The notes under the pieces were generated by a model that worked only from the letters and a program-made list of their open reading frames with translations, searched no databases and was not told where the DNA came from. Both the position numbers and the translations under genes were made by a program. Of a stretch of 58,916 bases of DNA, positions 49,637 to 55,055 are shown in pieces. Each line of letters begins with the position of its first letter. Position 1 is the first letter of the stretch. This DNA is from Bacteroidales bacterium (lineage in GTDB: Bacteria; Bacteroidota; Bacteroidia; Bacteroidales; PXBB01): contig PXBB01000007.1 in the NCBI GenBank assembly GCA_003565735.1, forward strand, positions 1-58,916. Direction: 5' to 3'.

Positions 49637-51802
49637 ATGTCATCAAAAAAGTCTTATAAATCAAAAAAGCGAAAAGCAGGCAATGTGCCAAAAAAAACAG
49701 GCATAGAGCAATTTATCAATAAGAACGAAGGGCACTTTTTCAAAAAATATGTAGAAAATAATAAGTGGTCTTACGTTATTATTTTTTTGCTCACTTTTTT
49801 ACTTTATGGCAACACACTCACTCTTGAATATGCTCTTGATGACCGGCTGATGATTACAGAAAACGAATTTACCCTCAAAGGTATTGCCGGGATTAAAGAT
49901 ATTTTAACCCATGATTCTTTTGTAGGTTTTTTTGGTGAACGGAAGAATCTGTTGAGCGGTGGTCGTTACAGGCCATTATCGCAAGTGATGTTTGCTGTAG
50001 AATATGAGCTTTTTGGCCTTAATCCGTTCATTGGACACCTTATTAACGTGTTGCTGTACGCACTATCGTGCATGATACTTTTAAAGGTTTTAAAGATTCT
50101 TTTTAAAAAAGCCTCCGGTTTGTACAGATACATTCCATATTTGGCCACTTTGCTATTTTTAGCACATCCGCTGCACACCGAAGTGGTAGCTAATGTTAAA
50201 GGGCGTGACGACATAATGAGCTTTTTAGGCTCTATTATAGTTTTACTGTTGGTTTTGAATTATGTAAAAACTAAAAAAATCAGCTATTTATGGGCTATTG
50301 GATGCGTTTTCTTTTTAACTTTAATGTCTAAAGAGAACGCCATTACATTTTTAGCTATAGTCCCGTTGACACTTTTCTTTTTTATCAAGCCACGCTTCAA
50401 ATATTATGTGACATCTATGATACCCTTGGTATTAAGCTCAGCACTTTTTATTATAATACGTGCGGCGGTTTTAGGCTTTGAGCTTAATATTGGGGAGGAA
50501 ACAGAACTGCTTAACAACCCCTATGTACATGCTACGGCAGGCGAAAAATATGCAACGATATTTTACACTATGGGTATATACCTGCGTTTGTTGATTTTTC
50601 CACATCCGCTTACACATGACTACTATCCTTTTCATATAGAAATTATTAACTGGAGTTCGCCAAAGGCTTTCATCCCATTGATAATATATGTTTGCTTAGG
50701 CATTTATGCCATCTGGGGTTTGTTAAAAAGAAAAATGCCTGCTTATGGTATAGCCTTTTACTTAATCACCTTTTCGATAGCCTCTAATTTGGTTTTTAAT
50801 ATTGGCACTTTTATGAATGAACGCTTTATGTATGTCCCTTTACTGGGCTTTTGTATTGTTTTGGCATACCTCATTGTGCTTGTGTCTTCGCGGTTGGCAA
50901 AAAATCCCCGTAAGGTCAAAAACTTAATATTTACATTCAGCCTGATAATATTTTTACTTTACGCTCCCAAAACTATAAGTCGCAACTTTGTTTGGAAGGA
51001 TGATTATACGCTTTTTACTACGGATGTCAAAATTTCAAAAAACAGTGCTAAGTGTAATGTGTCGGCTGGCGGTTTTATTCTTGAAGAGGCTATAGAAATC
51101 GATGATGAACGCCTTAAAAATGACAAACTTCAAGAAGCTCTTAAATATTTGAGCAGAGGTCTGGAGATACATCCCCACTATGTTGCCGCCTGGGTATTGT
51201 ACGGGAACGCTCATTTTCATAGTCAAAACTTTGAGGAAGCCAAAATGTGCTATGTTAATGCATTAGAAATCTCTCCTAACAATCAAGACGCCCTTAACAA
51301 CTTAAGACATCTTGCCGTTTATGTGCAATCGCATGAGAAGTATGATTTTTCTTTAAGTGTTTTCGAAACCATTCAGCAGTATAGTGAGTTAGATTCGGAC
51401 GATAAACTGCAAAAAGCTGTGGCAGTTGCTGAAGAATTTCCTCTGGAAGAAATGACCCTGAGGATTTTGTATGAAATCCTTGAAGAGGATTCGCTGCACT
51501 TTGGAGCCATAAGCAGATTAGGAGAAATATATGGAAGAGTGTACAACGATCTGGAAAAGTCCCTATATTACTTACACAAAGCCCACAGAATTAATCCGAA
51601 GGATGCGTCTAATCTGGAAAATATGGGCATAGCCTATGGCATGACCGGAGATTTTAAAAACTCGTTAATATATTTTGAGAAAGCTCTTAAGCATAACCCT
51701 GAAAGCGCTAAGCTTTTAAGCAATATTTCACAAACCTATGAACTGATGGGTGAAACAGAAAAAGCAGAGACCTATTTGAACAAAGCTCTTATGTTGCAGT
51801 AG
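49637..51802 (+). CDS. polytopic membrane protein with TMTC/DUF1736-like region and C-terminal TPR repeats
   Basis: 721 aa; AHPLHTEVVANVKGRDDIMSFLGS, LMSKENAITFLAIVPLTLFFF; TPRs AWVLYGNAHFHSQNFEEAKMCYVNALEISPNN and NLENMGIAYGMTGDFKNSLIYFEKALKHNPES. Confidence 0.85.
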   Translation: MSSKKSYKSKKRKAGNVPKKTGIEQFINKNEGHFFKKYVENNKWSYVIIFLLTFLLYGNTLTLEYALDDRLMITENEFTLKGIAGIKDILTHDSFVGFFGERKNLLSGGRYRPLSQVMFAVEYELFGLNPFIGHLINVLLYALSCMILLKVLKILFKKASGLYRYIPYLATLLFLAHPLHTEVVANVKGRDDIMSFLGSIIVLLLVLNYVKTKKISYLWAIGCVFFLTLMSKENAITFLAIVPLTLFFFIKPRFKYYVTSMIPLVLSSALFIIIRAAVLGFELNIGEETELLNNPYVHATAGEKYATIFYTMGIYLRLLIFPHPLTHDYYPFHIEIINWSSPKAFIPLIIYVCLGIYAIWGLLKRKMPAYGIAFYLITFSIASNLVFNIGTFMNERFMYVPLLGFCIVLAYLIVLVSSRLAKNPRKVKNLIFTFSLIIFLLYAPKTISRNFVWKDDYTLFTTDVKISKNSAKCNVSAGGFILEEAIEIDDERLKNDKLQEALKYLSRGLEIHPHYVAAWVLYGNAHFHSQNFEEAKMCYVNALEISPNNQDALNNLRHLAVYVQSHEKYDFSLSVFETIQQYSELDSDDKLQKAVAVAEEFPLEEMTLRILYEILEEDSLHFGAISRLGEIYGRVYNDLEKSLYYLHKAHRINPKDASNLENMGIAYGMTGDFKNSLIYFEKALKHNPESAKLLSNISQTYELMGETEKAETYLNKALMLQ

Positions 51803-52095: not shown

Positions 52096-53226
52096 ATGGG
52101 AAAAGATATAAACAAATCAGTATTTGATGAAGCTTCAAAGAAAAAACTTGAAATTTTTGGGGAAAGTTTTGAAGAGTGGTTACCTGTGTTTATTTACGAT
52201 AGGTTTATTACCCAAGTTTCTGTTTTTGATTTCTTTGCAGGAAGTGGAACGGATATTGAAAATAATCCTGGGAGTCCACTTATTTTATTAGATAAAGCCA
52301 AAGGGGAAAAACGCAAATATTGTGCTAGTGTAAAAAAGACCATAAAATTCTTTTTTAATGAAGGTAAAATTCACAAAAGTAACGAGTTGCAAAAAAATTC
52401 AGATGCTTTTATAGAACAATGTAAAAAAAACAACAACTGTTTAAGTTGTATCTATAATTATCATATTTTAAATTATAGTTTTCAAGATTTATTTAATAAC
52501 CTTGATTTAAAAAGGGTTTTTGAGAATAAAAACATTGCCAAGTTTGTATTACTTGATCAGTATGGTTTTAGCCAAATCAATGAAGATATTTTTAAACAAC
52601 TAATATCATTCCCCAAAACTGATTTTATTTTCTTTATTTCATCATCATTTATCAATCGTTTTAAAGACCATCCATATACAAAACAAAATATTGATACATC
52701 AAAAATTGCTTTTGAAAACAAAAAGCCCAACGAGATACACAGAACAGTGGCAGATTTTTTCAGGAGTCTTATCCCAAGCGACAAAGAATATTATTTACAC
52801 CATTTTTCTATTAAAAAAGGAGCTAATTACTATGGATTAATTTTCGGTTCAAATCATACACTCGGTATGGAAAAGTTCTTGAAAGTATGTTGGCGCCACG
52901 ATATATTATCAGGAGAAGCTGATTACAATATTGATAATAATTGGGAAGCTAACTCTTTGTTTTCTCAATTAGGTGAAAATGTCAAAAAGGATACGGTAAC
53001 GAAAGAAATAAAAGAATTAATTATATCAGGCAAAATAAGAGATAATAAAACAGGGTTGAAATACGCTTTAATAAAAGGCTGCGAACCAAAACTATTTACC
53101 GAAGTTGTTCAAAATTTAATTAATAGAAAAATGATAGAAATAATTGGTAAGTTTAATAGGCAATCAACCAATATTCATAAGATAAAAGAGCTTTATCAAA
53201 TTAAATGTATAAACAATGGCAAATAA
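52096..53226 (+). CDS. tcmP: three-Cys-motif partner protein TcmP-like
   Basis: 376 aa; VSVFDFFAGSGTDIENNPGSPLILLDK; FVLLDQYGFSQINEDIFKQLISFPKTDFIFFISSSFINRF; overlaps the Gp37/Gp68-like gene by 11 bp. Confidence 0.85.
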   Translation: MGKDINKSVFDEASKKKLEIFGESFEEWLPVFIYDRFITQVSVFDFFAGSGTDIENNPGSPLILLDKAKGEKRKYCASVKKTIKFFFNEGKIHKSNELQKNSDAFIEQCKKNNNCLSCIYNYHILNYSFQDLFNNLDLKRVFENKNIAKFVLLDQYGFSQINEDIFKQLISFPKTDFIFFISSSFINRFKDHPYTKQNIDTSKIAFENKKPNEIHRTVADFFRSLIPSDKEYYLHHFSIKKGANYYGLIFGSNHTLGMEKFLKVCWRHDILSGEADYNIDNNWEANSLFSQLGENVKKDTVTKEIKELIISGKIRDNKTGLKYALIKGCEPKLFTEVVQNLINRKMIEIIGKFNRQSTNIHKIKELYQIKCINNGK

Positions 53227-53974
53227 ACATAAAATAGAATGGACAGAACAAACATGGAATCCTTCAGCTGGTTGCACTAAAATAAGTTCAGGCTGTAAAA
53301 ACTGTTACGCTGAAACAATGGCAATTCGTTTGCAAGCAATGGGAGTGGAAGGTTACGAAAACGGTTTCAAATTCAATACTGTTTCAAGCAGATTAAACGA
53401 CCCTTTAAAAAGAAAAAAGCCGGCAGTGTATTTTGTTAGTTCTATGAGCGATATTTTTCATAATGATATGCCGAAGGACTTTTTAAATAAAATATTCCAT
53501 GTTATTGAAGAAACACCACATCATACTTTCCAAATATTGACAAAGAGAGCGGATAGAATGTTTGAATATTTTTTACAAAGAGAAATACCCAAAAATATTT
53601 GGATAGGCGTTACAGTTGAGAACAAAGAAGAAGGTTTCCCAAGAATTGATAAACTCAGACAATTAAAAGCCAGTGTTTTATTTCTTTCCGCTGAGCCATT
53701 ATTAGAAGATTTAGGTAAAATGAATTTAGAAAATATAGATTGGGTTATTGTTGGGGGGGAAAGTGGAAACAAAGCAAGACCAATGAAAAAGGAATGGGTT
53801 GTAAACATAAAACAACAATGTGAAAAAAACAACATTGCTTTTTTCTTTAAACAATGGGGAACTTGGGGAGCCGATAAAGTGAAGCGTAATAAAAAATTGA
53901 ATGGAAAAGAAATTGATGGTAAAATTTGGCAACAATATCCCGAAGTTATAGAACAGCAATTTGCAGTAGTGTAA
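53216..53974 (+). CDS. phage Gp37/Gp68 family (DUF5131) protein with three-Cys motif
   Basis: KIEWTEQTWNPSAGCTKISSGCKNCYAETMAIRLQAMG; VYFVSSMSDIFHNDMP; FQILTKRADRM; NIWIGVTVENKE; DWVIVGGESGNKARPM; FFFKQWGTWG. Confidence 0.93.
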   Translation: MANKHKIEWTEQTWNPSAGCTKISSGCKNCYAETMAIRLQAMGVEGYENGFKFNTVSSRLNDPLKRKKPAVYFVSSMSDIFHNDMPKDFLNKIFHVIEETPHHTFQILTKRADRMFEYFLQREIPKNIWIGVTVENKEEGFPRIDKLRQLKASVLFLSAEPLLEDLGKMNLENIDWVIVGGESGNKARPMKKEWVVNIKQQCEKNNIAFFFKQWGTWGADKVKRNKKLNGKEIDGKIWQQYPEVIEQQFAVV

Positions 53975-54080: not shown

Positions 54081-54105
54081 AAGCCCGATTATTCGGGCTT
54101 TTTGG
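54081..54105 (+). terminator. putative rho-independent terminator downstream of the tcmP-DUF5131 pair
   Basis: AAGCCCG-attatt-CGGGCTTTTTGG. Confidence 0.7.
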
Positions 54106-54557: not shown

Positions 54558-55055
54558 TCATTCTATCTCAAAAGTATCAATCATTTGTCGAAATTCATTA
54601 ATAGTTTGCTCATACCCGTTAACTGTAGCCAAACAAATTATATAATACATTTTATCATTTTCTGCCAGCATATAAACAAGGTTCTTGTATGTAAGATTAT
54701 TTGCTGTGTTTTTAAATTCAATCCATTTAGCCTTCTTCCAATTTACAGAAGAGTCCCACATTTGAATAAACTCGTAATTCTCAAATGCTATTGGGAAGTC
54801 TTTTATTACAAAGCTTTCCCATAGCTCTTCTAATGTCATTCCATTCGCTGGATATTCACTAATTTGAATATTCTCCCGATAGTTTTCCGAAGCACTATAT
54901 AATGGTTTTGCAAAAATTAGAGAATTATCTTTTGAGTAGTTCTCCCAATTATCAGCAGGGATAAAAGAAAAAGATTTTGAAGAATTAAACACTCTTTCTT
55001 GGCCGGATACAGTGTTCAAAAAAAAAAATGAAATAAAAAATAGTAATAATCTTAT
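54558..55055 (-). CDS. uncharacterised exported protein; true start unclear (possible ATG to ATA change)
   Basis: ORF track starts at a TTG (55019), but the frame stays open upstream and encodes (I)RLLLFFISFFFLNTVSGQERVFNSSK, a signal-peptide-like segment with ATA at the expected start position 55055. Confidence 0.55.
   Translation of the reverse strand: MRLLLFFISFFFLNTVSGQERVFNSSKSFSFIPADNWENYSKDNSLIFAKPLYSASENYRENIQISEYPANGMTLEELWESFVIKDFPIAFENYEFIQMWDSSVNWKKAKWIEFKNTANNLTYKNLVYMLAENDKMYYIICLATVNGYEQTINEFRQMIDTFEIE

Follow-up and report, generated by a model that had tools for sequence, protein, structure and literature searches.

The TcmP-DUF5131 gene pair of a Bacteroidales genome: a mobile cassette and candidate anti-phage system with a putative SPL-like radical-SAM component

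PDC-M30 is a non-validated candidate defence system that was predicted by 'guilt-by-embedding' and is included in PADLOC-DB v2 (PMC10855318). It is present in 32 of 100 Pseudomonas aeruginosa strains, 68.8% of which are phage-resistant (PMC10855318), and P. aeruginosa PA14 carries two PDC-M30 (PMC11878078). The protein families involved are TcmP (three-Cys-motif partner, TIGR04474) and DUF5131 (phage Gp37/Gp68 family, PF07505). In Sinorhizobium meliloti, the TcmP protein SMa2243 is listed beside the defence helicase Hna (SMa2245) among NolR-dependent genes (PMC12445080). In the open literature (subscription papers were outside the scope of the search), neither a functional study of TcmP or DUF5131 nor an experiment showing defence or enzyme activity of PDC-M30 was found. 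Two other described systems are relevant for comparison. PrrC and the rlo genes set the precedent of defence genes residing within type I restriction-modification (R-M) loci (PMC2610378), and spore photoproduct lyase (SPL) is a DNA-repair enzyme of the radical-SAM type.

The pair studied here is located in contig PXBB01000007.1 of a Bacteroidales bacterium; the 58,916 nucleotides analysed are called the window. Its features are collected in Table 1. The two open reading frames lie where the original prediction had placed them, on the same strand and with the same overlap, and both family assignments hold: TcmP matches TIGR04474 above the curated cut-off of 53 (120.5 bits, E=1.1e-34) and DUF5131 matches PF07505 well above its cut-off of 28.9 (351.5 bits, E=3e-105, model positions 2-243 of 243). 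A TcmP-type protein thus adjoins a three-Cys-motif (PF07505) protein, which is the pairing of TIGR04474. The three cysteines sit in DUF5131, TcmP being the partner of the three-Cys protein. The PADLOC models PDC-M30A (5.6e-112, covering 1-365 of 368) and PDC-M30B (7e-115, nearly full length) are both matched; the pair is therefore already catalogued as a phage-defence candidate, and that of the window looks like a real, intact and ordinary member of it. The source genome, of 2.64 Mb in 168 contigs, has a single copy of each gene. No promoter is claimed, since the Bacteroidota-type -7 box TANNTTTG is no more frequent in the window than expected by chance, and the terminator pattern scan returned 4 sites in the region versus 1.6 expected.

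Table 1. Features of the tcmP-duf5131 pair, in window coordinates
Feature	Position	Strand	Basis
tcmP, long class, 376 aa; PDC-M30A	52096..53226	+	TIGR04474, PADLOC, AlphaFold
TcmP motif I DFFAGSGTD, residues 45-53, SAM-binding loop	52228..52254	+	Residue conservation in relatives
TcmP DQYG, residues 154-157, at the place of methyltransferase motif IV	52555..52566	+	Residue conservation
TcmP C-terminal domain, about residues 296-350, winged-helix-like	52981..53145	+	Model, very weak profile match
DUF5131 (phage Gp37/Gp68 family), 252 aa, SPL-like radical-SAM candidate; PDC-M30B	53216..53974	+	PF07505, PADLOC, AlphaFold
Reading-frame overlap tcmP/DUF5131, 11 bp	53216..53226	+	Sequence
CTKISSGCKNC of DUF5131 (Cys20, Cys27, Cys30), CX6CX2C motif	53273..53305	+	Invariance in relatives
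Terminator-like hairpin (intrinsic) with T run, 107 bp past the DUF5131 stop	54081..54100	.	Pattern scan

The coupling that had been read from this single overlap is a trait of the family. Among 78 co-directional tcmP-duf5131 pairs, 32 overlap and 43 are spaced by 0-30 nt (75/78 in all); other arrangements are the reverse order (11 pairs) and convergent genes (8 pairs). Of 396 genomes sampled across the phylum, 59 contain TIGR04474 and 88 contain PF07505, and a PF07505 match adjoins 53 of the 64 TIGR04474 matches tallied, split-gene fragments being each counted singly. A TcmP shares the locus of the DUF5131 relative in 67 of 80 cases in GTDB contigs and in 41 of 80 in viral contigs. When E. 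coli genomes were searched at the DNA level, the pair had no match. Core synteny and a lack of co-occurrence, the two outcomes named beforehand as fatal to the original prediction, were looked for, and what was seen is a patchy distribution with strong co-occurrence. A housekeeping role was ruled out by patchiness, single copy and absent synteny.

DUF5131 is also found without TcmP in phages and plasmids, so that the need for both proteins together is not constant. In two loci that lack TcmP (L049 and L057) DUF5131 stands beside genes that look like the XRE/ImmA type, with a PIN-like gene in the former; judged by sequence, these proteins are possible other partners of DUF5131. Conversely, two TcmP genes flank one DUF5131 gene in seven Proteobacterial loci (L071, L072, L073, L076, L077, L091 and L098); in most cases the longer of the two has about 420-440 aa and the shorter about 280-320 aa.

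The AlphaFold model of TcmP, built with 105 sequences, is of high confidence (pLDDT 91.2, pTM 0.90). Searches of solved structures by sequence or profile returned nothing usable, whereas a Foldseek search of the PDB with the model retrieved class I SAM methyltransferases: TYW4 (5e-6), TrmM, Trm5a, METTL16 and others, with 33 folds at E<=0.001, nearly all of them methyltransferases. Model and fold search thus agree with the Rossmann/methyltransferase reading that had been proposed, and TcmP is confidently predicted to have a class I SAM methyltransferase fold with a helix-rich C-terminal domain. Since many methyltransferases score alike, the fold class is clear and a particular substrate is not indicated. 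Both motifs singled out by the original prediction were located. Motif I (DxFxGxG) is kept in the relatives: D45 and G49 in 104/105, F47 in 99/105 and G51 in 97/105. In the second motif, D154 is invariant (105/105) and residue 155 is restricted to P (66) or Q (39), followed mostly by Y/F and G. The motif (D/N/S)PP(Y/F/W) of amino-methyltransferases is absent, D[P/Q] occupying its place.

TcmP proteins fall into two length classes, of 276-315 aa and 361-415 aa, the window copy belonging to the long one. In the model, its C-terminal part consists of three helices followed by a strand, an arrangement that resembles a winged helix; the profile match of this region to BlaI-type penicillinase repressors is non-significant (E=0.25). 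This domain is probably absent from the short class. Over 69 pairs, mean identity is 24% for TcmP and 58% for DUF5131, and the identity matrices of the two proteins are weakly correlated (rho 0.18, versus a maximum of 0.105 in 500 permutations). A fast-diverging protein beside a conserved one can be read as a partner, perhaps the specificity part, accompanying a conserved catalyst; going by these sequence comparisons, TcmP would perhaps be the former and DUF5131 the latter.

The model of DUF5131 (100 sequences) is also of high confidence (pLDDT 94.1, pTM 0.91). Its best six solved-fold neighbours are all SPL, and the next two are the radical-SAM lipoyl synthase (LIAS); these top eight matches are weak (E 1.8e-3 to 2.1e-2), the TM-scores by query length for SPL being 0.43-0.50. 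Cys20, Cys27, Cys30 and their CX6CX2C spacing are invariant in all 100 relatives, whereas canonical radical-SAM enzymes have CX3CX2C. When the DUF5131 profile was compared by hhalign with an SPL-like radical-SAM protein (L227), a match of 86% was obtained (E=4.7e-6) with the cysteines aligned: 'NPSAGCTKISSGCKNCYAE' of DUF5131 is paired with 'NPYTGC---AFACIYCYAS' of L227, which is the same motif with three residues inserted. L227, a protein of the same class, is itself below the cut-off of PF20903. The same comparison gave about 1% for three classical SPLs, no more than 4% for radical-SAM loci of the own genome and less than 1% for shuffled sequences. Neither PF04055 nor PF20903 was matched by DUF5131, the latter being unlisted up to E=1. 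Membership of rSAM_mob_pairA (TIGR04471) was rejected, as the score of 102.5 bits is far under the cut-off of 355; the match itself has E=2.2e-29 over residues 17-213. Taken together, these results make it probable that DUF5131 belongs to the SPL-like branch of radical-SAM enzymes, as a divergent member with non-canonical cysteine spacing. A match of the window DUF5131 to Gene product 88 (PF17338) was also observed just below threshold (24.3 bits, cut-off 24.4, E=3.3e-5); on this similarity, the two phage families may be related.

Co-occurrence with defence genes, for which a survey had been proposed, is found in the surroundings of the pair across genomes. A Pfam scan of 120 direct neighbours detected ResIII (9), DEAD (6), N6_N4_Mtase (5), Methylase_S (4), EcoEI_R_C (4) and Phage_integrase (3), and the PADLOC models found among these neighbours are those of type I, II and III R-M together with MADS. 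In 15 loci, assigned by local homology, the pair is nested in the order hsdR-tcmP-duf5131-hsdS-hsdM, all genes having the same orientation and often being only a few bases apart; type III and ISP R-M genes also flank it. In the phylum sample, an R-M homologue is present in 15 of 44 pair stretches and in none of 20 control stretches (P=0.003), the controls being a small set taken from the same contigs about 80-100 kb away. The nine R-M queries used for this count were drawn from pair loci and are biased toward the test set, whereas the Pfam scan is free of this bias.

On a quick tree of DUF5131, the type I link requires 5 changes when compared with other R-M groups, at least 3 of them forced by supported branches, and 9 changes when compared with all rows. 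The nesting in type I operons is thus seen on several branches, and type I association has probably arisen or disappeared more than once. The closest relative of the window pair (genome G317, locus L264; 62% identity for TcmP and 85% for DUF5131) has an HsdR homologue on one side and an HsdS homologue on the other, and a gene near by is recombinase-like by sequence. The nested arrangement is that of this locus and 14 others; the window pair is not within an R-M operon and, like most pairs, has no adjoining R-M gene. Type I hsdM and hsdS genes of the same genome are on another contig (G000:C87:1682-5110). DUF5131 genes without TcmP that stand beside putative type I R-M subunits, as judged from sequence, were seen in L055 (1474-2211) and L053 (939-1673), so DUF5131 appears able to join R-M loci alone. 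Near viral DUF5131 genes without TcmP, no significant enrichment of DNA methyltransferase genes was detected by a relaxed-motif count (P=0.17).

In the window, the pair is flanked on one side by a TPR protein with a PMT_2-type glycosyltransferase region (49637-51802, +), which belongs to a multicopy family in genomes of the order (at 26 places in G002), and on the other by an orphan reading frame followed by TypA. For the orphan (54558-55019, -; 153 aa), a search of 41 genomes of the order turned up no relative, and no Pfam family scores above the cut-off. GC content of the stretch is 0.29-0.31 versus about 0.34-0.45 around it, which would be compatible with, rather than proof of, acquisition. 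Neither a tRNA nor a clear att-like repeat was found around the pair. An empty-site comparison was set aside because orthologues of the upstream TPR protein have different neighbours in relatives. The patchiness, the low GC content and the unshared flanks accord with the accessory interval of the original prediction.

Evidence of mobility comes from other replicons. Records that contain DUF5131 comprise 402 of plasmids, of which 146 are typed as conjugative, and 159 of phages. The Pseudomonas plasmids pCAR1 and pPUV-17 carry a recurrent cassette composed of a DNA-binding protein, an integrase, DUF5131 and TcmP. In Gordonia phage Fairfaxidum, the interval from the integrase to the immunity repressor contains DUF5131 (gp42) facing a TcmP (gp43, E=2.8e-43). 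In temperate actinophages this interval often houses genes that are expressed in the lysogen. Profile searches recovered phage TcmP in Fairfaxidum and in Synechococcus phage Ssp-JY39, where tblastn had shown none; the tblastn negative was therefore a matter of sensitivity. The pair is, in short, a mobile two-gene cassette of patchy distribution that recurs in type I restriction operons.

These data favour the role in phage conflict that had been suggested at the outset, to which the PDC-M30 assignment, the placement in and beside R-M operons, the plasmid integrase cassettes and the integrase-repressor interval of a temperate phage all lend support, and a defence role of this candidate is likely. 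We lean, with belief and doubt about balanced, to a mobile anti-phage (anti-invader) accessory cassette, PDC-M30, in which TcmP would target and DUF5131 would carry out radical chemistry. The two proteins would be produced together through coupled translation and would form a complex. TcmP, with its SAM-binding methyltransferase fold and often a winged-helix-like domain, would recognise and position a nucleic-acid target, perhaps methylating it first. DUF5131, as an SPL-like radical-SAM protein holding an Fe-S cluster and binding and cleaving SAM, would then perform radical chemistry on that target, most likely a DNA base. DNA is modestly preferred over RNA as substrate, given that the closest fold belongs to an enzyme acting on DNA and that DNA restriction enzymes are encoded near by. 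The module would assist or back up restriction-modification, in cis when nested among hsd genes and in trans when alone, as in the window; invading DNA would be hindered or restriction backed up. A narrower form, tentative and rather doubtful in its full detail, is a restriction-linked immunity in which a methyltransferase-like targeting protein hands a DNA base to an SPL-like, CX6CX2C radical-SAM enzyme, the two being repeatedly attached to type I R-M operons and the resulting base modification or lesion stopping the invader. If true, radical-SAM catalysis on DNA as part of restriction would be chemically unusual for phage defence.

PrrC and the rlo genes likewise sit inside hsd operons (PMC2610378), and the pair could be a guard of that kind: silent while the linked type I R-M enzyme works and unleashed when a phage inhibits restriction, it would modify the cell's own RNA (tRNA or rRNA) or DNA and halt infection through dormancy or death. 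The top fold match of TcmP, the tRNA-modifying TYW4, would agree with such a guard, though many methyltransferases score alike, as would a profile match to the rRNA methylase RlmJ that is non-significant (E=0.27). However, the majority of pairs are solitary, no resemblance to a nuclease or known toxin is seen in either protein, and DUF5131 occurs alone in phages with no evident antitoxin; a guard function is considered unlikely. A repair or protection function, by which an SPL-like lyase would reverse or mask DNA damage for phages, plasmids and R-M loci, would account for the resemblance of DUF5131 to a DNA-repair enzyme and for its wide carriage by phages and plasmids. It leaves unexplained both the fast-diverging TcmP partner and the recurrent nesting between hsdR and hsdS, and UV-repair families are not among the frequent direct neighbours in the Pfam scan; it seems improbable.

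The integrase cassettes of the Pseudomonas plasmids, and the recombinase-like gene near the closest relative, would also fit a cargo function in mobile elements that has nothing to do with phages, e.g. the maintenance of plasmids or integrative elements. However, the frequent direct neighbours are R-M genes and not partition or conjugation genes, and this explanation is regarded as very unlikely.

With respect to PDC-M30, the window genes match both models near full length, adjacent and co-directional, and the gene content is identical. The TIGR04474/PF07505 pair of NCBIfam and Pfam shares both sequence families and the adjacency with the window pair, whose TcmP belongs to the long class with the C-terminal domain and has DQYG where the TIGR04474 majority has DP. 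The system itself is thus already catalogued; beyond its naming as a defence candidate, what is added here to the original prediction is the SPL-like radical-SAM reading of DUF5131 and the finding that the pair is repeatedly nested in type I R-M operons. TcmP and DUF5131 are widespread and their function was not found in the literature searched; the putative SPL-like fold and the hsd nesting offer a biochemistry that can be tested. PrrC and RloC share with the pair the gene position inside type I R-M operons, but no relation in sequence or fold was seen and no nuclease family was matched. SPL provides the best, though weak, solved-fold matches for DUF5131 and the SPL-like protein L227 an alignable GC...C..CYA segment; however, DUF5131 differs from SPL in having CX6CX2C instead of CX3CX2C, in not matching PF20903, and in being linked to TcmP and restriction-modification and not to sporulation.
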